Notes under the pieces: model-generated | The model's input: the letters and a program-made list of their open reading frames with translations, nothing else | What the model was told of the DNA's origin: nothing | The model's database searches: none | Assembly: GCF_028748145.1 (NCBI RefSeq) | Contig: NZ_CP118181.1 | Span: 565,433-629,432, forward strand | Source of the DNA: Entomospira culicis | Lineage (GTDB): Bacteria; Spirochaetota; Spirochaetia; WRBN01 | DNA length: 64,000 bases | Reading direction: 5' to 3' | Program-made: the position numbers and the translations under genes | Shown here: positions 7,754 through 27,211 of the stretch, one piece after another | How positions within the stretch are numbered: the first letter of the stretch is position 1 | Layout of the letters: each line of letters begins with the position of its first letter

Positions 7754-8182
7754 GTGTTTGAGTGGTTTTTGCGTAAAACAAAACGGGGAGATTTCCTCAT
7801 TAATGCCTGTGATAGCAGTAAAGATAAGGTGTGGGTGGGCTGGCTTAAGCAGTGGATGCAACGGTTCGGCATGAAGCAAGCGCCTCTTTGTGCGGTGGCA
7901 GAGTGTGGCAAGCTTGCGACAACTGGGGCGCATGTTCGGCTAATGCGTCGTCGGCATGAATTTTCGCTCATTTATATTGTGCCGATGTGTACGGGTTGTA
8001 ACAATCGCACGGGAGTGGCAGGCTCGCCTCCCCCTAAGATGCGTGCGCGCTCGGGCGTGCTTTTGATGGAGAGTAATCTTAAAAACACCTGTCGCTATCG
8101 ATGCAAAAATAGCTGTAAATTTAAGCAAAAACGTCAACACTGGTGGCAACGTCTCTTTGGCTATCCAGCTAAAAAGGGGTAA
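7754..8182 (+). CDS. small zinc-binding HNH-like protein
   Basis: 142-residue protein with a treble-clef-like core: SSKDxxWxxWLKQW, then CxxxxCGKLATTGAH, then YIVPMCTGCNN. Small proteins of this pattern (C-x4-C, GAH, P-x-C-x2-CN) are widespread and resemble HNH nuclease or zinc-finger folds; no function is established. The C-terminal 40 residues are very basic with more Cys (CRYRCKNSCKFKQKRQ), suggesting nucleic-acid binding. A GTG start at 7754 fits a promoter ending 6 bases upstream. A related gene sits inside the cas operon at 16944-17225, which shares the SSKD, LAT-G-H and YI-P-C-x2-CN motifs. Confidence 0.6.
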   Translation: MFEWFLRKTKRGDFLINACDSSKDKVWVGWLKQWMQRFGMKQAPLCAVAECGKLATTGAHVRLMRRRHEFSLIYIVPMCTGCNNRTGVAGSPPPKMRARSGVLLMESNLKNTCRYRCKNSCKFKQKRQHWWQRLFGYPAKKG

Positions 8183-10526: not shown

Positions 10527-12971
10527 ATGGAAAATGTTAATCAAGATGAGTTTTATGCGCGCTATGACATTAATGATGAGGGCGAGGTCTTCTGGCAACG
10601 ATTAGACGATCATTTGCGTGAGGTGGCAGAGTTAGCGTATGATACGCTAAAAGATGTGGATGGAGAGTTGGCTAGCTGGGCAAAGCTGGCGGGGTATTTT
10701 CATGATTATGGCAAGTTTAACCCCGCTTTTCAAGAGCGGTTGCGTAAGGCTCAGGCTAAAGAGCACGCGCAGTTAGTCGCCAACACCGAAGAAGAGCGCC
10801 GTTTAGCCGATAAGATCCTCGTTCCTAAAGCACCGCATGCACAGCTAGGGGTGGATGGGTTTCTTGGATATTTAATGAAAAAGAAAGCAACGATGAATCC
10901 TAAATATCATGCATTGTTTACTTTTTTACCTTCATACGCTATTCTCGCTCACCATGCCGGATTGAGTGATACAATCAGTAAAAAAGAGTTTAACTCAACG
11001 ATAGATTATGCATTTTGGCGTGAGATGCTTGACAATCTCCATGCACTGGAACCACAGTTAACGGATTTTACTTCAGGTCTAATAGACAAGACAAATCACC
11101 TGCCTAGCAATGATGCCAAGCATAGTCAATTAGGGTTTAATGCGATGATGACGGTGCGTCTACTTTTTTCGGCGTTGGTGCATGCGGATCATCTAGCGAG
11201 TGCAAAGTTTCGCTTGCCTGATGATAGCGAGATTCATTTTGCTTCTATTGCAGAGATAAAAACTCATTTTGTAGCTCAATATAGACAATTTTTGGCTCAT
11301 CGTACCCACCCTTCGGCTAGCGACGTTACGGCGATTAAATTACAGCAAAAACGTAATGAGATTTACCAATCGTGCTTGTCCATGGCAACGCAAGAGCGAG
11401 GAATTTTTAGCCTCACCGTGCCAACGGGGGGAGGCAAGACACTCTCTTCTCTGGCGTTTGCTTTGCATCATGCAGAACATCACCAGCAACAGCGCGTGAT
11501 TTATGTGGCACCGTTTACCTCAATTTTGGATCAAACGGTTGGCATTTATCAGCAATATGTGGGAGAGCATAATCTCTTTGCCCACTACAGTACCTATGAT
11601 GCGCTCCAATTTAAGGAGAATGCCGAAGAGGCGTATCAGCCATTGCGCAACGCCTTGAGTGAGAGTTGGCAACAGCCGGTTATTTTGACGACAGCTGTGC
11701 AATTTTGGGAGTCGCTCTTTACGCACAAGCCATCCAAGGCGAAAAAAATTCATCACATCGCCAACAGTGTGATTATTCTCGATGAGATTCAGAGCATTCC
11801 GCGTGCGTATCTCTCGCCTATTTTGCACATGATGCGTAGTTTGGTGGCGTATGGTTGTTCGGTGGTGCTCTGCTCGGCGACCCAGCCACAGTTTGACGCT
11901 CCACAATTATCGCACTTGGCGCTACAGGATATTAAGGAGATGATGCCTAACCCTCAACAATTAGCCGATGATTTATCTCGTGTAACACTACACCTTTCGC
12001 ACGCGGCGAAGAGCATAGAAGAGTTGGCGCAGGAGGTTATTGCATGCTCGCAGGCATTAGTCATTGTCAATTTACGTGGAACGGCATCTAAGGTGTATCA
12101 GGCGATTTGTGAGCAAGTGGCAGATAAGGAGGCGGTCTTTCACTTGAGTGGACTGATGGCGGTGGCACACCGTCAAGAGATTTTAACGAGAGTCAAAGAA
12201 GAGTATCTTGCCAAGGGTAAGGCGTGTTACTTGGTGAGTACGCACCTTATTGAGGCGGGGGTGGATATAGACTTTCCTGTCGTTTATCGTGAGGAGGCGG
12301 GATTAGAGAATCTGATTCAATCGGCAGGTCGATGCAATCGAGAATTTAAGGTGGAGCGAGGTGCTTTTGTGATCTTTGCCTTGGCTGATGTGAAGATTCC
12401 CGATATGCACGCCCAACAACATGCCATCTATCAGCGTATCCGTGATGCATATGGGGAGAGATTATTTCACTTAGATGCGATCCGTGATTATTATCAAGAG
12501 ATTTATCATATCAATAATGCCGGGGTTAAAGGTGCGCAAGGTAATCCTCTAGATGTCTATGCGATTGAGCAAGATGTGAGGAATGTCGGTAGGAATTTTG
12601 CGAAGGGTGCTGCGCTCAATAATATGCCCTTTGCGTCGATTAGCCAGCAGTTCTCTCTCATTAAAGATGAGCAGTGGACGGTAGTTATTCCTTATCATAA
12701 AGAGGTTGAAGAGTCGATTCAGTACATCGAACAGAAGGGACTTTCTCGTAAGCACTTACGTAAGCTCGCACGTTATAGCGTGGGTGTCTATAAAAATCAC
12801 TATAATGAGTTGCACCATCAGCATCATATTCGAGAGCTAGTGGATAGTCGGGGGAATGCGCTGGGTATCTACTACCTTGAACCAGCGTATTATCAGACCA
12901 CCTATGACGAACGCATGGGCTTGAGGCAAGAGGTAAGCGATATTCTGGTGAGTGATAGTTCGATATATTAG
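10527..12971 (+). CDS. cas3: CRISPR-associated helicase-nuclease Cas3 (type I-C)
   Basis: 814-residue HD nuclease/SF2 helicase that degrades DNA marked by Cascade. The N-terminal HD domain has YFHDYGK (His59-Asp60) and a later HH pair (AILAHHAG). The helicase part has Walker A VPTGGGKT (about 298-305), the DEIQ box (about 417), SAT (about 450), STHLIEAGVDIDFP and the motif VI stretch QSAGRCNR. The HD-helicase order and length fit type I-C. It has its own promoter with the -10 five bases before the ATG and no ribosome site, so it is probably leaderless. It is separated from cas5c by 319 bases holding an orphan CRISPR repeat, so cas3 and the Cascade operon are controlled separately. Confidence 0.96.
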   Translation: MENVNQDEFYARYDINDEGEVFWQRLDDHLREVAELAYDTLKDVDGELASWAKLAGYFHDYGKFNPAFQERLRKAQAKEHAQLVANTEEERRLADKILVPKAPHAQLGVDGFLGYLMKKKATMNPKYHALFTFLPSYAILAHHAGLSDTISKKEFNSTIDYAFWREMLDNLHALEPQLTDFTSGLIDKTNHLPSNDAKHSQLGFNAMMTVRLLFSALVHADHLASAKFRLPDDSEIHFASIAEIKTHFVAQYRQFLAHRTHPSASDVTAIKLQQKRNEIYQSCLSMATQERGIFSLTVPTGGGKTLSSLAFALHHAEHHQQQRVIYVAPFTSILDQTVGIYQQYVGEHNLFAHYSTYDALQFKENAEEAYQPLRNALSESWQQPVILTTAVQFWESLFTHKPSKAKKIHHIANSVIILDEIQSIPRAYLSPILHMMRSLVAYGCSVVLCSATQPQFDAPQLSHLALQDIKEMMPNPQQLADDLSRVTLHLSHAAKSIEELAQEVIACSQALVIVNLRGTASKVYQAICEQVADKEAVFHLSGLMAVAHRQEILTRVKEEYLAKGKACYLVSTHLIEAGVDIDFPVVYREEAGLENLIQSAGRCNREFKVERGAFVIFALADVKIPDMHAQQHAIYQRIRDAYGERLFHLDAIRDYYQEIYHINNAGVKGAQGNPLDVYAIEQDVRNVGRNFAKGAALNNMPFASISQQFSLIKDEQWTVVIPYHKEVEESIQYIEQKGLSRKHLRKLARYSVGVYKNHYNELHHQHHIRELVDSRGNALGIYYLEPAYYQTTYDERMGLRQEVSDILVSDSSIY

Positions 12972-12980
12972 ATGAATTAC

Positions 12981-13009
12981 TTGCTTTTTCGCTTGCTTTT
13001 GGCTATACT
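12981..13009 (+). promoter_or_regulatory. promoter in front of the orphan CRISPR repeat
   Basis: TTGCTT (12981-12986), 17 bp, TATACT (13004-13009), beginning 9 bases after the cas3 stop. The predicted start (about 13016) is only ~6 bases before the repeat at 13022, and no open reading frame follows, so its product should be an RNA. Confidence 0.65.
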
Positions 13010-13021
13010 AAGGTCTCTAAG

Positions 13022-13053
13022 GTTGCCCTCCACGCGAGGGCATGAATTGAAAC
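13022..13053 (+). CRISPR. orphan, intact CRISPR repeat between cas3 and cas5c
   Basis: Identical over all 32 bases to the repeats of the main array 6.5 kb away (starts GTTGCCCTCC, ends ATTGAAAC) and in the same orientation. It stands alone; no second intact repeat is found nearby. Confidence 0.95.
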
Positions 13054-13096
13054 CACTTTTTCTATTTTTGTTTGGATATAATCTTATCAGTTTTAC

Positions 13097-13118
13097 GCCT
13101 ATAGGATTGACTATAGGC
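13097..13118 (+). terminator. hairpin ending the orphan-repeat RNA
   Basis: Perfect 8-bp stem GCCTATAG (13097-13104) / CTATAGGC (13111-13118) with a 6-base loop, followed by ATTTC and a T-rich stretch. It could act as a weak terminator or as a 3' stabiliser. Confidence 0.5.
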
Positions 13119-13122
13119 ATTT

Positions 13123-13156
13123 CACTTATTCTATTTTTTTTGGAATAATTTTTTCA
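13123..13156 (+). promoter_or_regulatory. candidate Cascade target upstream of the cas5c operon promoter
   Basis: Bases 13123-13141 match the sequence following the orphan repeat (13054-13072) at 17 of 19 positions; mismatches are at positions 6 and 17. Similarity continues to about 13156 with single-base gaps. The 5' flank is TTT, or TTC if the guide is counted one base later. The site ends about 21 bases before the -35 box. Confidence 0.55.
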
Positions 13157-13176
13157 ATAAATTTTTATAAAACCTC

Positions 13177-13205
13177 TTGACAATTTTTTTCTAATAAAGT
13201 AGAAT
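13177..13205 (+). promoter_or_regulatory. promoter of the cas5c-cas8c-cas7c-cas4-cas1-cas2 operon
   Basis: TTGACA (13177-13182), 17 bp, TAGAAT (13200-13205). The expected leader is about 80 bases and contains an attenuator-like hairpin and a strong AAAGGAGGT ribosome site before cas5c. Confidence 0.7.
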
Positions 13206-13227
13206 ATAATTAGTAAAAAGGAAGTAG

Positions 13228-13272
13228 GCGATATCAACTTTCTTTCTATTGGTTGATATCGCTTTTAGTTTT
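13228..13272 (+). terminator. attenuator-like hairpin in the cas5c leader
   Basis: Perfect 11-bp stem GCGATATCAAC (13228-13238) / GTTGATATCGC (13252-13262) with a 13-base loop, followed directly by TTTTAGTTTTATT. It lies between the promoter and cas5c, where it could cut off transcription unless opposed. No alternative antiterminator pairing was found by eye. Confidence 0.6.
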
Positions 13273-13290
13273 ATTAAAAGGAGGTAAGCT

Positions 13291-13998
13291 ATGAGCATTC
13301 GCATTTATGTGGAAGGCGAACGGGCGCTGTGGACGCGTCCTGAAAATAAAGCAGAACGGGTTTCTTATCCCGCAATGACCTTTAGTTCGGCTCGAAATTG
13401 TTTGCAAGCAATCTACTGGAAGCCCTCGATTGAGTGGGTGGTAGAGAGCATTGAGGTCTTGCGTCCCTCGCGCTTTATTTCGGTTAAACGCAACGAGGTA
13501 AAGAGTTTAGCCATTAAGGGTAAGGACGATTTTTACATTGAGGAGCTACGCACCCAGCGGTATACTTTGATGCTTGCTGGTATTAAGCAAGAAGATGCTC
13601 CGCAAGAGCGTCCGAAGTTGGCGTATATTATTAACGCTCACTTTCGTATGACCGACCTTGCAGGCGTATCGCGGAAAAAGTGGCAAGAACATACCCCCGA
13701 GGAGCTGGCTAATGATGCCAACCCTGACAAACATCTTGCTATTATTATGGAACGCTTACAAAATGGAAGTGCGTTCACCCAACCCTATTTTGGCACTCGG
13801 GAGTGCACGGCTTATTTTCGCCTAGCCAATGATGCGGATGTTTGCTTGCTTAGCGAGGAGGAGAAGAATAAGGATTGGGGCTGGATGTTTTATGACTTTG
13901 ACTTTTCAGATAAAAAAAATCCAAGACCGCTCTTCTTTCATGCCAAACTGAAGGAGGGAACTATCTATGCTCCTAAAAAGGAGGCACTTAGCTTATGA
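13291..13998 (+). CDS. cas5c: Cas5c (Cas5d), crRNA-processing subunit of type I-C Cascade
   Basis: 235-residue RAMP protein. In type I-C, which lacks Cas6, Cas5c cuts the pre-crRNA repeat and stays on the 5' handle. Seen: the family N-terminus (IYVEGERALWTRPENKAERVSYPAMTFSSARNCLQAIYWKP), which carries the conserved Tyr region, and the FGTRECTAYF segment typical of Cas5d. A strong AAAGGAGGT site precedes the ATG. Its stop overlaps the cas8c start by 4 bases. It is first gene of the Cascade/adaptation operon and the likely maturase for both the array and the orphan-repeat RNA. Confidence 0.94.
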   Translation: MSIRIYVEGERALWTRPENKAERVSYPAMTFSSARNCLQAIYWKPSIEWVVESIEVLRPSRFISVKRNEVKSLAIKGKDDFYIEELRTQRYTLMLAGIKQEDAPQERPKLAYIINAHFRMTDLAGVSRKKWQEHTPEELANDANPDKHLAIIMERLQNGSAFTQPYFGTRECTAYFRLANDADVCLLSEEEKNKDWGWMFYDFDFSDKKNPRPLFFHAKLKEGTIYAPKKEALSL

Positions 13999-15911
13999 TT
14001 CTGCAAAAACTTACTGATTTGTACGATCGCTTTGCTGGAGATGAGAGCGAGGATGTGCGCGAGGCGTTGCCTCTGTATGGATTTAGCTTGGCTAAGGTGG
14101 TGTATGCCCTGCATCTGAATGAGGCTGGCGAGCTAGTAGATAAAGATTATTTACGCTACAAAAAGCGTGTGGTGACAGGCAAAAACAAAGATGGTACGTC
14201 CAAGACAAAAGAGATGGAATTTACCAAAACGATGATTGTTCCCGAGCAAGAAGGGCGTAGTCAAAACATTCGAGCTTATTTTTTGTGTGATACGCTAACA
14301 TATATTCTTGGTAATAGCTATACACCCAAAAAACCTGAGACACAAGAAAAAAAGTTAAAAAAATTTGAAGCTTCCAAGGCATTACACCTTAGCGAAATCT
14401 CTCGTATGAATGAGCCACTACTTGAGCCGGTAAAGCGTTTTTTTGCGCAGTGGAATCCCCATAATTTTGAGCAATTTGTGCAAGATAATATGCCTAAATG
14501 GGACGATTGGCAACGTATGGAAGACGCAGTTATTGTTTTTCGCTTGCCTAGTGGAGCGTATGCGCATGATTTGGCAAGTGTTAAGGCTTACGCGGTAGAT
14601 CAAGCCAGTAGTGCCGAAGGCGAGCGTGGGCGTTGTATGGTTACCGGCAAGGAGAATGTGGTGATTGCCGATTTGCACCCAAACGTCAAGATGCCCGGTG
14701 GTGGCAGTAAATTTGTCTCCTATAATTACGGTGTGTTGACTTCCTATAATAAGAAAGGTGGAGCTAATGCCCCTATTGGGGCGGAGACAGCGTTTAAATA
14801 CACCGAAGCGCTCAATATGTTAATTGGTACAAAAAATCAGCGAATTAGTTTGGGCGATGCTACGGTAGTTTATTGGTCAAACGGTGCTAGTGAGTATGAG
14901 CAGGGACTAAAAGATACACTGCAGCCAGAGGAAGAGCAGACGATAGCGGAGTTAAAAAGACGACTTATCCGCTACAATCTTGATAAAGGGTGGATTGATC
15001 TTACGCATGTTCGTTTACCTGTAGAAGGTCTTACGGATATGACGATTGTTGATGAGGACTTGAATATAAAGGATCCTCAACCCTTCTATGTTTTGTCTTT
15101 AGTGGCGAATATGCAACGTTTGGGCATTCGCTTTTTTTGGGAGAGCACCATTGGGGTGAATAAAGCAATTATCACTAAATATTATAACGAACTGGAGTTG
15201 GTACGTTTTACCGACAAACAGCCTGAATTTATTCCGTTATATGCTTTAGTGAGTGCGACTAAGAGTAAAATGGAACGGGAGACTTCACCCGTTGTTGTTG
15301 ACTACTTGTTACAATCTGTTTTGACTGGGCAGGAGTATCATCGATCATTGTTGTCCCATTTGGTTAGTCGTATTAGGCGCGATCATGATACGGGCTATAC
15401 CCGTACGGCGTTGATTAAGGCGATTTTATTGCGTAATCACGCATCGTATTTAGAGCGATATGCGTCATTGGTTTGTATTGCATCGATGAATGAAGAAGAG
15501 AGAAAAAAAAGGAGGTTAGTTGTGTTAAATGATGAGTTAGCCAGCCATGGTTATTTGAGTGGTCGCTTGTTTGCGGTGCTAGAGAGGGCGCAGGATATGG
15601 CCATTGGTGCCAATGCGAGTATCAGTGATCGATACATTGGCTCGGTATCTACACGTCCTGCGGTGGTCTTTCCGCTACTTTTAAAGTTGAATGTGCATCA
15701 CTTAAGTAAGATTGGTGGTGGCATGGCTTTTAACTTTAAGCTAGAGCTGGAGCGGATTATGGCACATTTCGATGTGAATGAGAAGGGGGTGATTTTCCCA
15801 CGTATTTTGTCGCTAGAGGAACAGGGATTGTTCTTTGTGGGCTATTATCACCAGCGTGCTGCCATGAGCGATCGCTTACGCAGTGAGAAGAAAGAAGAGA
15901 GTAATCAATAA
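13995..15911 (+). CDS. cas8c: Cas8c (Csd1), large subunit of type I-C Cascade
   Basis: 638-residue Csd1-family protein, the large subunit that reads the PAM and recruits Cas3. Typical features are MILQKLTDLYDRF at the N-terminus, GRCMVTGKENVVIADLHPNVKMPGG in the middle (a Csd1 hallmark), and GSVSTRPAVVFPLLLKLNVHHLSKI near the C-terminus. In type I-C the small subunit Cas11c is usually made from an internal start within cas8c; in-frame Met codons are present in the last third, but none has an obvious strong ribosome site apart from GGAGGTTAG near 15510, before a GTG. The ATGA overlap with cas5c indicates coupled translation. Confidence 0.95.
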   Translation: MILQKLTDLYDRFAGDESEDVREALPLYGFSLAKVVYALHLNEAGELVDKDYLRYKKRVVTGKNKDGTSKTKEMEFTKTMIVPEQEGRSQNIRAYFLCDTLTYILGNSYTPKKPETQEKKLKKFEASKALHLSEISRMNEPLLEPVKRFFAQWNPHNFEQFVQDNMPKWDDWQRMEDAVIVFRLPSGAYAHDLASVKAYAVDQASSAEGERGRCMVTGKENVVIADLHPNVKMPGGGSKFVSYNYGVLTSYNKKGGANAPIGAETAFKYTEALNMLIGTKNQRISLGDATVVYWSNGASEYEQGLKDTLQPEEEQTIAELKRRLIRYNLDKGWIDLTHVRLPVEGLTDMTIVDEDLNIKDPQPFYVLSLVANMQRLGIRFFWESTIGVNKAIITKYYNELELVRFTDKQPEFIPLYALVSATKSKMERETSPVVVDYLLQSVLTGQEYHRSLLSHLVSRIRRDHDTGYTRTALIKAILLRNHASYLERYASLVCIASMNEEERKKRRLVVLNDELASHGYLSGRLFAVLERAQDMAIGANASISDRYIGSVSTRPAVVFPLLLKLNVHHLSKIGGGMAFNFKLELERIMAHFDVNEKGVIFPRILSLEEQGLFFVGYYHQRAAMSDRLRSEKKEESNQ

Positions 15912-15928
15912 AAAAGGAGTATATAATC

Positions 15929-16879
15929 ATGAGTAATCATTTAGAGAATCGTTACGATTTTGTCTTTTATTTTGACGTGGAGAATGGTAATCCCAACGGA
16001 GACCCTGATGCGGGTAATCTGCCACGCACCGACCCAGAGACCGGCTATGGCTTTACCACTGATGTCTCGATTAAGCGTAAGATCCGCAATTACGTGCAGT
16101 TGAAGTATCCGCTTAAAGATCGCGTGGATGAGGGCAAAGACTTCCGTATTTACGTGAAGGAGAAGGGCGTGCTTAATCTTTTTCATGAAGAGGCTTATCT
16201 CCATGCTAATAGTGTTTCGGTAAAGGCAGTGGATAACTCTGCCGAGGGCGAGGATAAGAAGAAGGACGCTAAGGGCAATAAGCGCATTGGCAGTGAGGAT
16301 CAGGTGGACAAGGCACGGGCTTGGATGTGCGAGCAATTTTACGACGTGCGAACTTTTGGCGCGGTAATGAGTACGGGGGTGAATGCAGGACAAGTGCGAG
16401 GGCCGGTACAATTGACCTTTGCACGTAGCCAAGAACCGATCTTTGCGAATGAGGTTTCGATTACGCGTATGGCTGTGGCTACCGAAAAAGAGGCAGAGCA
16501 ACAAAAGGGTGATAACCGCACCATTGGTAAGAAAGCGTTTATTCCCTATGGTCTCTACCGTGCCGAGGGCTTTATCAGTGCGAACTTGGCGAACCAGACG
16601 GGCTTTGACAGTGATGATTTAGAGCTCTTGTGGGAGGCGATCCTTAACATGTACGAGCATGATCGATCGGCGAGCCGTGGCAAGGTTTCGGTGCGGAAGT
16701 TGGTGGTCTTTAAGCATGATAACAAGATGGGAAAGGCTCCTGCTCAAACGCTCTTTGATTTGGTGCAAACCAAGCGTGTTACCTCTAGTGATGCACCAGC
16801 GCGAGCCTTTAGCGACTATCAAATTACCATCGCGAAAGAGAACGTTCCCGCAGGTGTCGAGCTAATCGAAAGGTTGTAA
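15929..16879 (+). CDS. cas7c: Cas7c (Csd2), backbone subunit of type I-C Cascade
   Basis: 316-residue Csd2-family RAMP protein that polymerises along the crRNA spacer. It starts with the family signature YDFVFYFDVENGNPNGDPDAGNLPRTDPETG and contains DVRTFGAVMSTG and GPVQLTFARSQEPI. The start has AAAAAGGAG upstream. A strong 12-bp hairpin follows the stop codon, probably stabilising the upstream mRNA or lowering expression of the downstream genes. Such a break is reasonable because many Cas7 copies are needed per complex and few Cas4/1/2. Confidence 0.95.
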   Translation: MSNHLENRYDFVFYFDVENGNPNGDPDAGNLPRTDPETGYGFTTDVSIKRKIRNYVQLKYPLKDRVDEGKDFRIYVKEKGVLNLFHEEAYLHANSVSVKAVDNSAEGEDKKKDAKGNKRIGSEDQVDKARAWMCEQFYDVRTFGAVMSTGVNAGQVRGPVQLTFARSQEPIFANEVSITRMAVATEKEAEQQKGDNRTIGKKAFIPYGLYRAEGFISANLANQTGFDSDDLELLWEAILNMYEHDRSASRGKVSVRKLVVFKHDNKMGKAPAQTLFDLVQTKRVTSSDAPARAFSDYQITIAKENVPAGVELIERL

Positions 16880-16943: not shown

Positions 16944-17225
16944 ATGAGTTCAAAAGTAACTAGTTTAAACCAAAAGGTTAAAAATGTTAGTGGATCTAGT
17001 AAAGATCGAGGTAATTGGCTTCAATCATTTTATGCTGAAGGCGATAGTAATGCGGAAACCTGTATTATCAAAGGTTGTGGAAATTTAGCGACTGCTGGTG
17101 GTCATTTATATCATGATTACGATATAACTAGGGTGTATATAGCTCCAATTTGCGATACATGTAACCATCCTAGTAACACTGATTGGATGGAAGTCAAAGC
17201 TCATCGATTAATGATGAAAAGATAG
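16944..17225 (+). CDS. small HNH-like zinc protein inside the cas operon
   Basis: 93-residue protein encoded between cas7c and cas4, where type I-C operons normally have nothing. The core is SSKDRGNWLQSF, CIIKGCGNLATAGGH, YIAPICDTCNH: a C-x4-C plus C-x2-C zinc pattern with a GGH like HNH/treble-clef nucleases. It resembles the 142-residue protein at 7754-8182. It has its own ribosome site (TTGGAGGA), is more AT-rich than the cas genes, and is bracketed by hairpins (16891-16919 and 17236-17261), which suggests a later insertion. It could be a co-opted nuclease or regulator, or a passenger. Confidence 0.7.
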   Translation: MSSKVTSLNQKVKNVSGSSKDRGNWLQSFYAEGDSNAETCIIKGCGNLATAGGHLYHDYDITRVYIAPICDTCNHPSNTDWMEVKAHRLMMKR

Positions 17226-17295: not shown

Positions 17296-17910
17296 ATGCA
17301 AGAGTATGACTATATTCAGATAGCAAGTTTACAACACTATCAATATTGTCCGCGTCAATGCGCCCTAATGTATAATGAACAAATTTGGGCGGATAGCTAT
17401 CACACCAAGGCAGGCGATATTCTGCATGAGAAGACGCACCAAGAGCGTATTCGCTATGAAAAAGGTGTGCGTATCGAGACGGCAACGACGGTGGTGTCGC
17501 ATCGCTATGGCTTGATGGGGGTGTGTGATACGATTGAATTTCACCCTGATACAATTTTGCCGATTGAGTATAAAGTAGGAAAAAGTAAGAGCATCTATGA
17601 GGTAGACAAGGTGCAATTATGTGCGCAGGTACTCTGTTTGGAAGAGATGACCGGTCAATCGATTACACAGGGAGCGATTTACTACAATCAAGAAAAGAGC
17701 CGTAGCTATATCGAGATAGACGAAGCATTAAGATCGCTCACCGTAGATGTTTTAACGAATGTTCATAAGTTATTGTTTAATAAAGAGTTGCCTGTTGTAG
17801 AGAAGAGCAAGAAGTGTGCACTTTGCTCGCTGGTGGAGCTATGTATTCCTGATTTAACGAATATGGCTGTGGCAGATTATTGGCAAACGATGGCATCGGA
17901 GGTGGATTGA
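17296..17910 (+). CDS. cas4: Cas4 adaptation nuclease
   Basis: 204-residue RecB-like exonuclease of the Dna2/Cas4 family, which trims and orients new spacers by PAM in type I-C together with Cas1-Cas2. Seen: the N-terminal Cys pair (YCPRQCAL, C18/C22), HEKTH, the nuclease motif LPIEYKVGK, and the C-terminal iron-sulfur cysteines CALCSLVELC. The ATG follows AAAAAAGGAGG. The stop overlaps the cas1 ATG (TGATG). Confidence 0.94.
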   Translation: MQEYDYIQIASLQHYQYCPRQCALMYNEQIWADSYHTKAGDILHEKTHQERIRYEKGVRIETATTVVSHRYGLMGVCDTIEFHPDTILPIEYKVGKSKSIYEVDKVQLCAQVLCLEEMTGQSITQGAIYYNQEKSRSYIEIDEALRSLTVDVLTNVHKLLFNKELPVVEKSKKCALCSLVELCIPDLTNMAVADYWQTMASEVD

Positions 17911-18935
17911 TGAAAAAGATGTTGAATACGCTCTTTATTGAGTCGCCTAAGAGTAGCTTACGGATGGAAGGCGAAAGTATTGTGTTACGTTTGGCGAACG
18001 GGGAGAAGAAAAAGCTTCCTACGCTCAATATCGATTCGTTAGTGATTCGAGGATCGGTCTATGTTAGCTCGCGAGTATTGGCTTATTGTGCCAAGCATGG
18101 TATCTTGGTGAGTTATTTTAGCGTGAATGATCGGATGCTTTTTAAGATTGATCGATCTTTGGCTGGTAGTAATGTCTTATTACGGCGCGCACAACACGAA
18201 GCAACCAAAGCAGAGAATGCGTTGCCGGTGGCTAAGTCGATCGTCATGGGGAAGATACTCAATCAACATCATGAGTTGCAACGTTACAAACGAGAGTATG
18301 CGAAAGAGGATCGCAGGTTGATAGAAGATATCAGTAAATTGAAGCATCAGTTGCGGTATGTGGAACTTGCTAAGGATCTCGATGAGTTGCGCGGTTATGA
18401 GGGGGTGACTAGTAGTCTCTACTTTAAGTATTTTAACGATCGGATTCGTAAGCATAAGAGGGAATTTTTTATGAAGGGACGCAATCGTCGCCCACCGATG
18501 GATCGGGTGAATGCGTTGCTGTCGTATGGGTATCAGGTGTTGTACCATGATATGATTGGGCTGGTGGAGAGTGTGGGTTTGGATCCTGCGATGGGATTTT
18601 TACATCGGGATCGTCCGGGTCGGATGAGTTTGGCGTTGGATATGATGGAGGAATTTCGTTCGTTGGTCATTGATCGTTTGGTGATACGCTTGATTAACTT
18701 GGGGCAAATTACACCCGAAGATTTTGATATCTCGGCTAGCGGAAGTGTGCGGATAAAGGATAAAGCGAGGCGGATCTTTCTTGAAGGGTATGTGGATCAA
18801 AAGAGAGAGTCATATTTTCATTTTTATACGGGAGAGAAGCTGAAATTACCACATTTATGGCACGTGCAGGGGCAATTATTGGCAAGGTATTTGCGAGGTA
18901 ATATTGAAGGGTATCCTGCCTTTGTGGTGCGATGA
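17910..18935 (+). CDS. cas1: Cas1 spacer-integration protein
   Basis: 341-residue integrase of the Cas1-Cas2 complex. Read from MKKMLNTLFIESPKSSLRMEGE, it has the N-terminal beta domain (DSLVIRGSVYVSSRVLAYCAKHGI), then the helical catalytic part with GFLHRDRPGRMSLALDMMEEFRSLVIDR, carrying the conserved His and Glu, and a C-terminal segment near HFYTGEKLKLPHLWHVQG. An in-frame start 30 bases earlier exists, but the ATG overlapping the cas4 stop is the usual arrangement and length for type I-C Cas1. Confidence 0.95.
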   Translation: MKKMLNTLFIESPKSSLRMEGESIVLRLANGEKKKLPTLNIDSLVIRGSVYVSSRVLAYCAKHGILVSYFSVNDRMLFKIDRSLAGSNVLLRRAQHEATKAENALPVAKSIVMGKILNQHHELQRYKREYAKEDRRLIEDISKLKHQLRYVELAKDLDELRGYEGVTSSLYFKYFNDRIRKHKREFFMKGRNRRPPMDRVNALLSYGYQVLYHDMIGLVESVGLDPAMGFLHRDRPGRMSLALDMMEEFRSLVIDRLVIRLINLGQITPEDFDISASGSVRIKDKARRIFLEGYVDQKRESYFHFYTGEKLKLPHLWHVQGQLLARYLRGNIEGYPAFVVR

Positions 18936-18947
18936 TGGGAGGGTAGA

Positions 18948-19238
18948 ATGAAAGTTTTGGTCTGTTACGATGTGGCACGCGATGATAATGGTGCAAGGCG
19001 ATTGCGTAAAGTGGCGCGTATCTGCGAGGATTATGGGATACGGGTGCAGTATTCGGTGTTTGAGTGTCTAGTGGATCCGGCGCAATTGCTGATGTTGAAG
19101 CGATCATTGGAGCAAGCTATCAACATGAAAGTAGATAGTTTGCGGTACTATCACTTAGGAAAGAATTGGAAAAATAAGGTAGAACATGTGGGAGCAAAAG
19201 TGGCTATCGATATGGAGAATGATTTGCTTTTATTTTAG
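18948..19238 (+). CDS. cas2: Cas2 spacer-acquisition protein
   Basis: 96-residue ferredoxin-fold protein that bridges two Cas1 dimers during spacer integration. Family signs: VLVCYDVARDDNGARRLRKVARICEDYGIRVQYSVFECLVD, the first strand with its Asp and the typical QYSVFE. It is the last cas gene, 12 bases after cas1, and is followed by the 283-base array leader. Confidence 0.95.
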   Translation: MKVLVCYDVARDDNGARRLRKVARICEDYGIRVQYSVFECLVDPAQLLMLKRSLEQAINMKVDSLRYYHLGKNWKNKVEHVGAKVAIDMENDLLLF

Positions 19239-19521
19239 GGATGGGTGCGTGTGCGAAGTGGTAGTGATGGTGAAAAACGAGGAGGGTTCGCAACATGTTG
19301 GGAGAGTGAGGGTGTGATTGACAAGGCTTGACTAGCTGTGATAAGATAGTTTAGGCGAGTGGGGAAGGGCTAGACTCCCTGAGGAGTAGAGGATTTTGTT
19401 GCTCGCCGATGTTGTTTTTGCGTGAGAGGAAGCTTTGTCTGGATAGCGAGATAAAGTGAGGCTAGGTTCGCGAAAAGTGCAAAATAAAAGCATGTAAGCG
19501 AAGGAAATAGGAAGGGTAGAG
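19239..19521 (+). promoter_or_regulatory. CRISPR leader
   Basis: Non-coding stretch between the cas2 stop and the first repeat, purine-rich on this strand (many GGGAG/GTGAG runs). It contains a promoter-like TTGACA (19318-19323) with TAAGAT (19342-19347) 18 bp downstream; a second TTGACT lies at 19329. The cas2-proximal position and repeat orientation (ATTGAAAC at the 3' end) make this the leader and the spacer-insertion end. Confidence 0.75.
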
Positions 19522-22500
19522 TTGCCCTCCACGCGAGGGCATGAATTGAAACATTTTTTTGGGTTTTAGATGCACTGCTTAGTGGAGGAGTTGCCCTCCA
19601 CGCGAGGGCATGAATTGAAACTATGTCATTTTTCTACCACCTCCACCGTATCGTATAGTTGCCCTCCACGCGAGGGCATGAATTGAAACCTGGCGGTACG
19701 ATGGATATCGATCGATTTGTGAAGGTTGCCCTCCACGCGAGGGCATGAATTGAAACGAGAATTTTAATATGGATAAGAGCATACTGGAGAAAGTTGCCCT
19801 CCACGCGAGGGCATGAATTGAAACGCAACTCTTCACCCTTCAACTTGCTATCGATAAAACCGTTGCCCTCCACGCGAGGGCATGAATTGAAACTTTGCTC
19901 AATTTCACGTAATCGCCGTCCTCTATCCATAGTTGCCCTCCACGCGAGGGCATGAATTGAAACACTTTTAGGCGTTCCTCGCCCCGTAATCTAGCCATGG
20001 GTTGCCCTCCACGCGAGGGCATGAATTGAAACAGCACAGATTTAACGGCAGTATTAAGCATGGTAATGTTGCCCTCCACGCGAGGGCATGAATTGAAACT
20101 CAGATATAGTGATATACACTCCATCAGCATAACTCTTGTTGCCCTCCACGCGAGGGCATGAATTGAAACTGCATAGAGGTTAGATTTCCGCGCAACCATG
20201 CAACGTTGCCCTCCACGCGAGGGCATGAATTGAAACTCGCCCCTATTGTACGGGGCTGAATGTAGTAAATTTCGTTGCCCTCCACGCGAGGGCATGAATT
20301 GAAACAGTGGTCGCTCGCCAATACTACTAGCTGGTCTAGCGGTTGCCCTCCACGCGAGGGCATGAATTGAAACTTGCGATAGCGGTACGCAGATCCAGCT
20401 AGCGACAGGATAGTTGCCCTCCACGCGAGGGCATGAATTGAAACGAAAGTTGTAACTGAAACCGCTCTCTGGTGCGCTAGTTGCCCTCCACGCGAGGGCA
20501 TGAATTGAAACACCCACGATATAGACGCTAGCTCTGGTAGTAGCGGTGTTGCCCTCCACGCGAGGGCATGAATTGAAACGCATGCCCTTGTCGATGGCTG
20601 GGCGCGTGGCATCGCCGTTGCCCTCCACGCGAGGGCATGAATTGAAACTCTATGGCAAGCAGGGAACGGGTAAGGGGACGCTCGTTGCCCTCCACGCGAG
20701 GGCATGAATTGAAACAGCAAAACGACAAGCGGTTGAATGGCAAAATCCAAGGTTGCCCTCCACGCGAGGGCATGAATTGAAACCCACTCAAAATAAAGTG
20801 ATGAAGATTATGACGCTCAAGTTGCCCTCCACGCGAGGGCATGAATTGAAACTCGACAAGGGAAGAAGAGCTGATGCGGCGGTTAGAGCTGTTGCCCTCC
20901 ACGCGAGGGCATGAATTGAAACCCACCACCAAACTCAAGCCAACGGGTCGCATCTATGCGTTGCCCTCCACGCGAGGGCATGAATTGAAACAATCATATC
21001 ATAGAGTTGAAAGGTGTTGTTAATGCCTGGTTGCCCTCCACGCGAGGGCATGAATTGAAACGCGAAGTGGAGGGCACACGAAATCCGAAAATCAGGGGTT
21101 GCCCTCCACGCGAGGGCATGAATTGAAACTGACAAGCAGAAAATAAAAAAGAACCACTATAAAAGAGTTGCCCTCCACGCGAGGGCATGAATTGAAACGT
21201 TAGCTCGCTCGCTCTCAATCCCGTTTGCACTAAGTTGCCCTCCACGCGAGGGCATGAATTGAAACTTCTGCTGTTGTAGTATGATAGTAGTAGGGTTAGT
21301 GGTTGCCCTCCACGCGAGGGCATGAATTGAAACTGGAGCATGCTGTCAGTATGCAAGACGTGGTGATGAAGTTGCCCTCCACGCGAGGGCATGAATTGAA
21401 ACGTGGAGCTTTATCAACGCAAAAACCCGTTTGCCTTGTTGCCCTCCACGCGAGGGCATGAATTGAAACTAAACCATGAGCCTATACCGTTTCATAAGCT
21501 TCTCTGTTGCCCTCCACGCGAGGGCATGAATTGAAACACTCTCTTTAACCAACCGCTCACCGACGCGGAGCGTTGCCCTCCACGCGAGGGCATGAATTGA
21601 AACTTTTGTCTATGTAACCTTGACAAAAATAAATAAGCAAGTTGCCCTCCACGCGAGGGCATGAATTGAAACATAAGCTCAATTGCAATAGAAAAAAAAG
21701 CAACGCTAGGTTGCCCTCCACGCGAGGGCATGAATTGAAACAAGGAAAACTCACGATAGATGACCGCATCAGGCAACGTTGCCCTCCACGCGAGGGCATG
21801 AATTGAAACAATATGCACGATATCATCAACGTAGCCATCACGCTAGGTTGCCCTCCACGCGAGGGCATGAATTGAAACCTTCCCTCCTTGAGTGGGGGCG
21901 GTTATCGCCCCCTATAGTTGCCCTCCACGCGAGGGCATGAATTGAAACAACCTCCTTCCCACAATCTCTTGATGTATCCAATAGCGGTTGCCCTCCACGC
22001 GAGGGCATGAATTGAAACCGATCATCATACCGCTTGCGTACCCCGCTGTATCCAGTTGCCCTCCACGCGAGGGCATGAATTGAAACGATGTACTCAAAGT
22101 ATCTTGAGCCCGTTCGCATGTCGTTGCCCTCCACGCGAGGGCATGAATTGAAACTATGGCATAGAGTTAGATGGATTTTTGGGCTGGTGGGGTTGCCCTC
22201 CACGCGAGGGCATGAATTGAAACCGCGCGGTATCGTCTCATGGCCGAGGCTGGTGAAGTTGCCCTCCACGCGAGGGCATGAATTGAAACCTTTTAGTTCT
22301 TTTTCTGTGAGTTTTTTGTAGTCTGTTGCCCTCCACGCGAGGGCATGAATTGAAACATAGAGGAAAAAATCAAGCCCATCAACCCCGAATTGTTGCCCTC
22401 CACGCGAGGGCATGAATTGAAACTCGTTCTATTATCATATCTCCTTTAGCCATCCTTCTCGTTGCCCTCCACGCGAGGGCATGAATTGAAACCCACGTAT

Positions 22501-25500
22501 CCGCTTTGTGTAATGTATCCCACTAGCTCTAGGTTGCCCTCCACGCGAGGGCATGAATTGAAACTTAAGGCGGTAATTAATACCATTAAGAAGATATTTA
22601 GTTGCCCTCCACGCGAGGGCATGAATTGAAACTGAATACGCCACGGCAGGCGGTCGATATTGTGGGTGGTTGCCCTCCACGCGAGGGCATGAATTGAAAC
22701 GTGCCAAATCGGCTACTCTGGAAGGGCGATAAGTGGGTTGCCCTCCACGCGAGGGCATGAATTGAAACCAAATACGCGGATAATAAAGACCACGTGCAAA
22801 GGATGTTGCCCTCCACGCGAGGGCATGAATTGAAACCATAGCTTGATATAGTACCTAGGCACTCGCTGGATGTTGCCCTCCACGCGAGGGCATGAATTGA
22901 AACAGCACATTTGCGATTCTTCCTGCTGCTTTGCCTGCGGTTGCCCTCCACGCGAGGGCATGAATTGAAACTTATAAAGACATCCTAGTGAGTTGCGGCA
23001 AGTAACATGTTGCCCTCCACGCGAGGGCATGAATTGAAACTGATACGACTGATAACAGTAGTCAAGCTATCCTCCTGTTGCCCTCCACGCGAGGGCATGA
23101 ATTGAAACTTACTTCACGAATATGCGTGGTCTTACCTATACCTAGTTGCCCTCCACGCGAGGGCATGAATTGAAACGCAGAACGTGCTAAACCAGATACG
23201 CGATGTGCTAGGGTTGCCCTCCACGCGAGGGCATGAATTGAAACATGAGCTACGCCGAAAAAGAGCGCTTGAGTGCAAAAAGTTGCCCTCCACGCGAGGG
23301 CATGAATTGAAACATGCTTCCGCTATCCCTGCTGGTGGTGGCTTGCGAGGTTGCCCTCCACGCGAGGGCATGAATTGAAACTATGCCAGCGCCGAAACGG
23401 TAGGAGGAAAAAAACGGCGTTGCCCTCCACGCGAGGGCATGAATTGAAACATCGCGCTAAATATGGAGCATCGACAGGCGCAAAATTGTTGCCCTCCACG
23501 CGAGGGCATGAATTGAAACGGCACTACCGAGACGCGACTCGTAGCCGTACAGGTTGCCCTCCACGCGAGGGCATGAATTGAAACGTTAGTCGTACCAAGC
23601 CAGCCAGCACTAATATGGACGGTTGCCCTCCACGCGAGGGCATGAATTGAAACAGCAAGCCATAAACTGATACTGTCAATTGGCGAGCGTTGCCCTCCAC
23701 GCGAGGGCATGAATTGAAACCCATTTTTAGCCCTCCTCTCTAGCACCGCATCCCTAGTTGCCCTCCACGCGAGGGCATGAATTGAAACTCTTGAATATAG
23801 ACATTTTCGTCCTCCTTTTACAGGTTGCCCTCCACGCGAGGGCATGAATTGAAACCTTTGCTTCTGCAATATCCTCTGCCGTATCACTCTCTGTTGCCCT
23901 CCACGCGAGGGCATGAATTGAAACATCGCCTGTGGTGCAACGTCAAACGGATATGAAAAAGGTTGCCCTCCACGCGAGGGCATGAATTGAAACGTTCGTT
24001 CATGACCTCTTGTTCTCTTTCCATCTTGCGTGTTGCCCTCCACGCGAGGGCATGAATTGAAACTTCCATTCAATGCGTGGTGCAAGATTGTCATCGTCAG
24101 TTGCCCTCCACGCGAGGGCATGAATTGAAACTTTGAAAATAATCGTCAACGTCAAGAATCTCAATAGGTTGCCCTCCACGCGAGGGCATGAATTGAAACC
24201 ACTCTAGGAATTCACTATTTAGATTTGGGCGATTGTTGCCCTCCACGCGAGGGCATGAATTGAAACCTTGCCATCGCTACTTACCGCAACTCACTAGGAT
24301 ATGTTGCCCTCCACGCGAGGGCATGAATTGAAACCTCCTTCAGCGTCTACTCCGCTCCTGTCTATCTCAGTTGCCCTCCACGCGAGGGCATGAATTGAAA
24401 CTCGGGTTCGTCGGGTCTCACAATCTTGATCGCCGTGTTGCCCTCCACGCGAGGGCATGAATTGAAACCAGGCGATTTTTCTGGTGCGTTCGAAAATATA
24501 GCAAGTTGCCCTCCACGCGAGGGCATGAATTGAAACATTTAGGGCAAAAAATAACAAAGGATAATTTTCAAATGTTGCCCTCCACGCGAGGGCATGAATT
24601 GAAACTGCGAAAATGCAGGATTTCATGCATCGCAAGATCCGTTGCCCTCCACGCGAGGGCATGAATTGAAACTACAGTTGTTTTTGAATCTGACAATCTA
24701 GGCTATCGGTTGCCCTCCACGCGAGGGCATGAATTGAAACGCTCTAATTGCAAGATTTGTGCTTCGCTCAAACCTTGATGTTGCCCTCCACGCGAGGGCA
24801 TGAATTGAAACTGTGCGTGGATGGAGCGGTGATGTTTCACTATCCGATGTTGCCCTCCACGCGAGGGCATGAATTGAAACTCGCCTCGTTTCGAGCCTCC
24901 ACTAGCCTCATTCACGGTTGCCCTCCACGCGAGGGCATGAATTGAAACTGGCGTCATACTCACGCCGTAGGCGCTCTAGCTCGTGTTGCCCTCCACGCGA
25001 GGGCATGAATTGAAACCAGAGGATTTTTATATTCATGATAGCATAGATGGTAGGTTGCCCTCCACGCGAGGGCATGAATTGAAACGGTTGCTAAACGTGA
25101 TACTGTGGCTAGTATATCTTGGCGTTGCCCTCCACGCGAGGGCATGAATTGAAACTGCAAGGGTTTCGGTACGTGGTATTTTTTACGCGAGGTTGCCCTC
25201 CACGCGAGGGCATGAATTGAAACTCGCCTAGGTCTACCCTCACTGTCATATTGCCACCAGTTGCCCTCCACGCGAGGGCATGAATTGAAACTCGGATCAC
25301 CTTGTGGGTAAAAAAACGGGATCACAGCATGTTGCCCTCCACGCGAGGGCATGAATTGAAACAAAAAGATAACCTGAAAGTAATCATCAACATCAAGGAG
25401 TTGCCCTCCACGCGAGGGCATGAATTGAAACACCTTACTCTCGCGCTCGCTATCCCGCAACGCATGTTGCCCTCCACGCGAGGGCATGAATTGAAACCGC

Positions 25501-26384
25501 CCTCTGGTGGGCGTACTATGTGGGTGGAGTTCGTTGCCCTCCACGCGAGGGCATGAATTGAAACTAGACTATCCATCACGCGCCCGATGCCGCTATATGC
25601 AGTTGCCCTCCACGCGAGGGCATGAATTGAAACTTAGTCGCTCCGTGGTCTCGCTGTGGAAGTCGATAGGTTGCCCTCCACGCGAGGGCATGAATTGAAA
25701 CTATCCACTCAACTTGTATAGGTCTGGGCTTCTCGCCGTTGCCCTCCACGCGAGGGCATGAATTGAAACTACACTTAGGAGGTGTAAAATGAATATAAAT
25801 TATATGTTGCCCTCCACGCGAGGGCATGAATTGAAACTTACCTCGTCGTACATCTCTAGGCGACCGTTCATGCCTGTTGCCCTCCACGCGAGGGCATGAA
25901 TTGAAACATCGGGCGTGATATGGAGCGTGTACTGGACACGCTACGTTGCCCTCCACGCGAGGGCATGAATTGAAACAATCAGATGACACTAATTAATCTG
26001 ATTAAAGAAACGTTGCCCTCCACGCGAGGGCATGAATTGAAACACTATTAAGAGGCAAGGGCGCGGTGCTATCGGGTAGGTTGCCCTCCACGCGAGGGCA
26101 TGAATTGAAACCCGATAAAGCGTTTGTTAAAACTATTAAAAAGGAAGTTGCCCTCCACGCGAGGGCATGAATTGAAACAGGCTCACTTTATCGCCTGGAA
26201 GTGTCGGCATATAGGTTGCCCTCCACGCGAGGGCATGAATTGAAACATATAGTATCTCGGCACTCGCTGGATATGATTTTCGTGTTGCCCTCCACGCGAG
26301 GGCATGAATTGAAACCCCTTCTCTACAATCTTGAAGGGCATAAGATGATACCGTTGCCCTCCACGCGAGGGCATGAATTGAAAC

Positions 26385-26421
26385 TGTAGAGTAATGCTGG
26401 TTGACTTGGTACTACTAACCA
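26385..26421 (+). repeat. duplicated spacer, copy 1
   Basis: 37-base spacer beginning TGTAGAGTAATGCTGG, identical to the spacer at 27003-27039, 618 bases (nine units) downstream. Confidence 0.95.
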
Positions 26422-27002
26422 GTTGCCCTCCACGCGAGGGCATGAATTGAAACATATCCAGCTTAATGGCATTTATTAGTCGTGATAATGTTGCCCTCCA
26501 CGCGAGGGCATGAATTGAAACTCCTTGTGATAGCGGTTTTTTTCATCGGGTAGCACGCGGTTGCCCTCCACGCGAGGGCATGAATTGAAACACCAAACAA
26601 ATAAGGCGCTAAGGCGCGAGATACGTCGTTGCCCTCCACGCGAGGGCATGAATTGAAACTTCGGATATCACGCAACAAGCCGATATCCATTCTATCGTTG
26701 CCCTCCACGCGAGGGCATGAATTGAAACGTTAATAAACCGCTCTATGCGCCCTCTCAATTGAGTTGCCCTCCACGCGAGGGCATGAATTGAAACTCTTCG
26801 GTAGTCGTTGAGTTCGATTCCCGTTTCATTGTTGCCCTCCACGCGAGGGCATGAATTGAAACACAAGTACACACCGCTAGCAACACCTTTAACCCACGCG
26901 TTGCCCTCCACGCGAGGGCATGAATTGAAACGCAGGGGGCGATGTCATCGACCTCGGGCATGGCATCGAGGTTGCCTTCCACGCGAGGGCATGAATTGAA
27001 AC

Positions 27003-27039
27003 TGTAGAGTAATGCTGGTTGACTTGGTACTACTAACCA
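27003..27039 (+). repeat. duplicated spacer, copy 2
   Basis: Identical to 26385-26421. The repeat just before it (26971-27002) is the variant with a C-to-T change (GTTGCCTTCC). This suggests array-internal recombination rather than a second independent capture. Confidence 0.95.
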
Positions 27040-27211
27040 GTTGCCCTCCACGCGAGGGCATGAATTGAAACCATATTTTGACTCTATCAATAAATCCGCT
27101 GGTACTCCCGTTGCCCTCCACGCGAGGGCATGAATTGAAACATGCTCGAGCGGTACCGCCCAAGAGACTAACTTTGTGTTGCCCTCCACGCGAGGGCATG
27201 AATTGAAACCC

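Follow-up and report, generated by a model that had tools for sequence, protein, structure and literature searches.

The closest described counterparts of the locus analysed here are the CreR RNAs, crRNA-like RNAs that arise from an ectopic repeat near cas genes and have limited complementarity, next to a PAM, to the control region of their own cas operon. One report describes cas-regulating CreR RNAs for types I-B, I-E and V-A (PMC13131331), and another presents CreR as widespread in type I (PMC12737573). Published ectopic repeats are degenerate (PMC9458426). Related devices serve other ends. CreTA, a type VIII toxin-antitoxin system of haloarchaea (type I-B) and Acinetobacter (type I-F), is a small module between cas genes in which a seed-limited guide with a degenerate or single repeat directs Cascade. 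In CrePA, the guide RNA CreA controls a KilA-N toxin protein through Cascade and a nearby promoter, while the Racr repeats of phages are solitary repeats downstream of a promoter-like site.

The window, a 64,000-nt stretch of Entomospira culicis contig NZ_CP118181.1 (genome size 1.77 Mb), contains a unit at 13022-13121 that resembles these systems to different degrees. As in CreR, a repeat-derived 5' handle lies outside the array and beside the cas genes, and partial, seed-weighted complementarity to the control region of the unit's own cas operon is accompanied by a PAM. The unit differs from CreR in its subtype, I-C, with Cas5c rather than Cas6 as the predicted processor, in a first repeat that is intact rather than degenerate, in a target that lies upstream of the −35, and in a regulatory role that is predicted from sequence. 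It shares with CreTA the seed-limited Cascade guide, the single repeat and the position between cas genes; unlike CreTA, it has no recognised toxin RNA in the window, where a hairpin RNA is possible and a mini-ORF is lacking. With CrePA it shares a guide RNA that, together with Cascade, is predicted to control a nearby promoter, but in the window only cas5c stands under that promoter, and the sister loci described below encode short membrane peptides instead of KilA-N.

The single repeat behind a promoter-like site also recalls a Racr that poisons Cascade assembly. Racrs, however, are known from viruses and plasmids, away from cas genes (PMC10651486), whereas this repeat lies inside a cas operon, on no mobile element, and is followed by a guide that matches adjacent DNA. 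Identity with a Racr was rejected on these grounds, and poisoning of Cascade assembly is extremely improbable. A device of the CreR type is already published for other subtypes, and the sequence evidence supports the unit as a type I-C case.

The cas locus and its orphan repeat

An NCBIfam profile search identifies an intact type I-C set in the order cas3-cas5c-cas8c-cas7c-cas4-cas1c-cas2 (Table 1); the TIGR03640 match, at 367 bits, falls under its cut-off of 385. The gap from the end of cas3 (12971) to the start of cas5c (13291) holds a single CRISPR repeat, and direct reading bears out the initial annotation, which had described it as intact and identical to the repeats of the array. All 113 exact copies of the array repeat in the genome lie inside the window, 112 in the array and one in the orphan unit; four degenerate repeats (two forward and two reverse, with 1-3 mismatches) are found elsewhere in the genome. 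The final 11 nt of the orphan repeat, TGAATTGAAAC, would form the 5' handle of a crRNA.

Table 1. Features of the type I-C cas locus and the orphan repeat unit in the window
Feature	Coordinates	Strand	Evidence or score
cas3, HD nuclease and helicase, intact	10527..12971	+	NCBIfam TIGR01587, TIGR01596 above cut-off
Weak promoter-like site TTGCTT-17-TATACT, candidate for orphan unit	12981..13009	+	8/12; absent from promoter scan's list
Orphan CRISPR repeat, 32 nt, GTTGCCCTCCACGCGAGGGCATGAATTGAAAC, identical to array repeat	13022..13053	+	exact sequence match
Guide, 36 nt (modal spacer length of array), diverged copy of 13123-13156	13054..13089	+	
Hairpin unit, stem 13097-13118, predicted RNA 3' end	13090..13121	+	
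PAM position, TTT	13120..13122	+	
Guide target; matches guide positions 1-5 and 7-16; indels put the guide out of register after 16	13123..13156	+	
Sigma-70-like promoter TTGACA-17-TAGAAT upstream of cas5c	13177..13205	+	11/12
cas5c leader: 11-bp hairpin 13228-13262, then U-rich tail TTTTAGTTTT	13228..13272	+	fold z = −4.7
cas5c, crRNA-processing nuclease and handle-binding subunit of type I-C Cascade	13291..13998	+	NCBIfam TIGR01876
cas8c	13995..15911	+	TIGR01863
cas7c	15929..16879	+	TIGR02589
cas4, cas1c, cas2	17296..19238	+	TIGR00372, TIGR03640, TIGR00287, TIGR01573
CRISPR array, 113 repeats, 112 spacers, modal spacer length 36	19521..27209	+	

The unit is not an ordinary array of at least two recognisable repeats behind a leader, since it has one repeat and no leader similarity was seen. 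An Rfam search of 12500-13800 gave no match. The 8-bp hairpin said to close the unit at 13118 is present, with a predicted energy of −13.2 kcal/mol, and the unit containing it is either terminator-like or a second repeat that is fully degenerate. The promoter proposed before the repeat fared less well: its letters are there, but the site is weak and was not listed by the promoter scan. Transcription of the unit could alternatively come from cas3 read-through.

Two small ORFs, one upstream of the cas operon (7754-8182) and one inside it (16944-17225), share the Cys-rich motif CGxLATxGxH ... PxCxxCN; neither has a Pfam or NCBIfam match.

A PAM-flanked match between guide and target

The initial annotation had aligned the bases after the repeat (13054-13072) to 13123-13141 with 17 of 19 matches. 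This count is correct, and 1 of 20,000 dinucleotide shuffles of the gap, scored on both strands, reached it. The homology also extends over the full length of the guide, which the earlier reading had not recognised. When two 1-nt gaps are allowed, all 36 nt align to the target with 31 of 34 bases identical, a local score reached by none of 4000 shuffles. The two sequences become similar precisely where the repeat ends and cease to be so after 36 nt, where the hairpin unit follows. In register, 16 matches fall in positions 1-18 and 8, near the random level, in positions 19-36; seed pairing is thus kept and register is lost beyond nucleotide 16.

No spacer of the window array matched a phage record, so the PAM cannot be derived from the array itself. 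TTC and TTT are the PAMs of the Neisseria lactamica type I-C system (PMC10865793), and a PAM catalogue gives TTC, TTN and TTT among those for I-C (PMC8482600); the TTT before the target therefore counts as an accepted type I-C PAM. The combination of a TTY PAM and the seed site is unique in the 1.77-Mb genome, with 0 mismatches at the target and 2 at the next best site, the guide itself included.

The two copies lie 69 bp apart, the length of one repeat and one spacer, and the initial annotation had offered a decayed tandem duplication as an alternative. Such a duplication, or a leftover two-repeat array with a duplicated spacer, would be a functionless relic whose intact repeat is perhaps young and whose second unit could be a wrecked repeat. 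This explanation fits worse. The repeat border is an abrupt limit of the similarity: by hand count, the 32 nt that precede the target, where the hairpin unit lies, are only about 31% identical to the repeat, while the spacer copy keeps 31/34. The seed is intact although register is gone after nucleotide 16, and the pattern recurs independently elsewhere, including loci L100 and L198, where the strand is the opposite one. The full-length copy of L100 belongs to a unit inverted about 220 bp away, for which a local tandem duplication cannot account. Simple tandem duplication was rejected for the window unit on the sharp border, the low repeat identity before the target and the inverted L100 copy, and a neutral relic of either kind is improbable.

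Recurrence in other type I-C loci

The cas3-cas5c gaps of 128 type I-C loci were scanned: the window, 80 loci from GTDB genomes and 47 from genomes of the same phylum. The gap is shorter than 60 bp in 80 of the 128 and measures 60-1500 bp in 46, which form the comparison set. A handle resembling the end of the locus's own repeat occurs in 16 of these 46 gaps, compared with a mean of 2.4 in shuffled gaps. In 10 loci the handle is joined by a guide with a seed match, defined as a run of at least 10 positions with every sixth a wildcard, to a PAM-flanked site within that gap; no such case arose when the gaps were shuffled in 200 rounds. Only 2-3 loci pass when the wildcards are set at other phases. 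L028 and L049 additionally pass a shuffled-guide test (p ≤ 0.005), which brings the loci whose handle and guide seed-match their own gap to 12 of 46.

A rule-free test took the best 18-mer match by identity alone, with no PAM or phase imposed, and 14 guides reached at least 13/18. TTC or TTT precedes the target in 12 of these 14 best matches. Their mismatches concentrate at positions 6 (10 guides), 12 (8) and 18 (8), with at most 4 at any other position. Type I Cascade leaves every sixth base unpaired, and the mismatch positions fit this property. Because the thresholds were set during exploration, replication was sought in fresh genomes. Eighteen further Rhizobium-family loci yielded L198 (mismatches exactly at 6, 12 and 18; TTC) and L203 (9 and 18; TTC), and the loci of one spirochaete family yielded L220 (6, 9 and 18; TTT).

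The targets of L027, L096, L100, L139 and L220 lie on or beside a cas promoter or start: that of L096 is just upstream of the cas5c −35, and those of L027 and L100 are at the cas5c promoter or start. The L203 target starts upstream of the −35 and, over 36 nt, extends to it by reading of the sequence. The recurring anatomy consists of a handle, a guide, a hairpin and a TTC- or TTT-flanked site near a promoter in the same gap. The reading of the initial annotation, a self-targeting RNA guided by Cascade, is supported at the level of sequence by this anatomy in independent type I-C loci, where different guides each match their own target.

The anatomy is not universal. Handles without a convincing target were found in L069, L078, L057 and L174, and the Tistrella locus L181 has a handle for which no clear target was found. 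In the region before cas3, the frequency of handles does not exceed that in shuffles, and a matching target appears only in L139, where guide shuffling alone gives a modest 62/5000. The unit is absent from Nitratidesulfovibrio vulgaris DP4, whose gap is 13 bp long, and from several other plasmid-borne systems. In a Bacteroidales MAG (L063, 6177-6273), an exact repeat, a 35-nt spacer and a degenerate second repeat stand alone upstream of cas3; no target for this mini-CRISPR was found nearby.

Comparison with other spirochaetes

The initial annotation had proposed that the guide-target match be sought in relatives that keep the repeat. The match is kept in L220, a member of the class Spirochaetia from a different family. 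Its layout is that of the window: the end of cas3, a degenerate repeat with the handle GTGGATTGAAAC, a guide, a repeat-like hairpin with a U-run, a TTGACA-17-TATACT promoter, a TTT-flanked target at the start site, and cas5c. The guide and target sequences are unrelated to those of the window and thus constitute the covarying guide and target that the initial annotation had proposed to look for. At the position of the window's 13090-13121, L220 has a recognisable degenerate repeat hairpin, then the U-run. A second spirochaete, L139, has a handle, a guide, a terminator hairpin, a TTGACA-17-TATATT promoter and, immediately ahead of cas3, a TTT-flanked target with mismatches at positions 6 and 12.

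G238 (L160), of the window's class, and the Treponema saccharophilum plasmid pTS2 (L179) share one and the same gap sequence. Among the sampled genomes with cas5c, the closest relative (G001/L102) belongs to the family of the window; its gap measures 12 bp and contains no unit. Since this relative lacks the unit and most sampled gaps are shorter than 60 bp, the guide unit is optional.

Promoters and a leader hairpin before cas5c

The target had been placed about 21 bp upstream of the −35 of the cas5c operon. The promoter is confirmed, its −35 starting 20 bp past the target, which lies in the cas5c control region and over a weaker plus-strand promoter-like site at 13121-13149. On the minus strand, a promoter-like site (13157-13128, 10/12) sits precisely beneath the target; transcription from it would run leftward and be antisense to the guide.

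The promoter-like sites under the target and the cas5c leader hairpin were overlooked in the earlier reading. The hairpin lies between the promoter and cas5c and is possibly a terminator or attenuator; the promoter may accordingly drive cas5c only feebly. An attenuator or a CreTA-like small RNA is therefore possible. In the latter case the promoter repressed by the guide would serve a short, structured RNA of about 13212-13272, toxic or regulatory in its own right and ending at the hairpin, and cas5c would be expressed mainly by read-through. The terminator-like hairpin directly after the promoter suits this arrangement, as does a small ORF under the guided promoter in the sister loci L028, L041 and L203. 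Against it, the sequence before the hairpin shows no mini-ORF equipped with a start codon and a ribosome site, and in the spirochaetes L220 and L139 such an RNA is absent and the guide is aimed at the cas gene itself. The CreTA-like variant is unlikely.

The position of the target upstream of the −35, and not upon it, also invites a reading as self-protection or activation, in which Cascade at 13123 would shield the site, open the AT-rich region, or block cas3 read-through without net repression. The ectopic Cascade-guided RNAs of the literature repress, however, and the target overlaps the promoter or start in L027, L100, L139 and L220, which makes this reading very improbable.

A model for feedback on the cas5c operon

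The anatomy of the unit, its PAM, the partial match, its uniqueness in the genome and its recurrence are seen directly in the sequence. From them we infer transcription of the unit, processing by Cas5c, binding by Cascade and the sign of the regulation. The unit is probably a CreR-like regulatory guide gene of the type I-C system, which would act as a feedback brake on its own cas5c operon. Its transcript would carry one intact repeat, at which Cas5c would cleave to create the 5' handle, and would end at the hairpin 13097-13118. The RNA would load into the Cas5c-Cas8c-Cas7c Cascade, which would locate the TTT-flanked site at 13123 and pair with it over about 16 nt with position 6 flipped out. 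Since the remaining guide has lost register with the target, Cascade would stay there without provoking Cas3.

From this position, immediately ahead of the cas5c promoter, Cascade would lower transcription of cas5c-8c-7c-4-1-2. It could deny RNA polymerase the AT-rich stretch upstream or the weaker promoter that overlaps the target, or it could block cas3 read-through. Array crRNAs would compete for Cascade; as these or phage inhibitors tie it up, the brake would slacken. Repression of promoters by such complexes has a precedent: a heterologous type I-C Cascade with TTC guides (PAM TTC/TTT) represses gonococcal promoters (PMC10865793). Against a feedback brake stand the intact state of the repeat, which sets it apart from the degenerate ectopic repeats in print, the lack of a unit in G001/L102, and the end of the window target 20 bp before the −35, off the promoter core; L096 presents a parallel to the last, its target too lying just upstream of the −35. 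The distance to the −35, along with the hairpin between the promoter and cas5c, keeps confidence in the model moderate.

Within the literature searched, no account of guide-RNA feedback in type I-C was found; the primary CreR paper lay outside this scope and may contain a I-C prediction.

Origin of the guides

Once gaps are allowed, the resemblance to the target extends into the 3' half of the guide in the window, L100 and L101 (p ~0.001 each; 12 loci tested). This suggests that these guides originated as entire spacers copied from a promoter of the same cell; later loss of register past the seed would spare the target from Cas3 and would have let the guides persist.

Toxin-like sister loci

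L028, L041 and L069 code for similar membrane peptides in a small ORF placed between the target and the guide (43% identity between L028 and L041, E 3e-17); the L069 target is weak. In L028 this arrangement lies at about −320 to −100 relative to cas5c. L203 and L052 have other short hydrophobic ORFs, and across these five loci an ORF either separates the PAM-flanked target from the guide or follows the target. By sequence, the short membrane peptides look like candidate Cascade-repressed toxins in a CrePA-like form, of which no description for type I-C was met in the literature searched. Repeat-like hairpins are also found at the cas5c ribosome-binding region, at −88 and −46 in L069 and at −40 in L028 relative to cas5c, and Cas5c might bind or cut its own mRNA there.

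A broader interpretation, which we favour somewhat, is that across many phyla the type I-C cas3-cas5c gap, or the region before cas3, would be a recurrent home of Cascade guides copied whole-spacer from their own promoter, with register then lost beyond the seed. One branch (the window, L220, L139, L027, L096 and L100) would regulate the cas operon, and a sister branch (L028, L041, and probably L069 and L203) would control toxin-like short membrane peptides that would guard the CRISPR system.

Implications

The guide-target pairs reveal, in natural sequence, the bases that Cascade ignores (6, 12 and 18), and three loci (the window, L100 and L101) suggest where the guides come from: the locus's own promoter, copied as a spacer. 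Type I-C is among the commonest CRISPR subtypes. If the model is true, type I-C systems gauge how much free Cascade is available and hold themselves back, which would bear on native type I-C editing tools and on the response of the cell to anti-CRISPR proteins.
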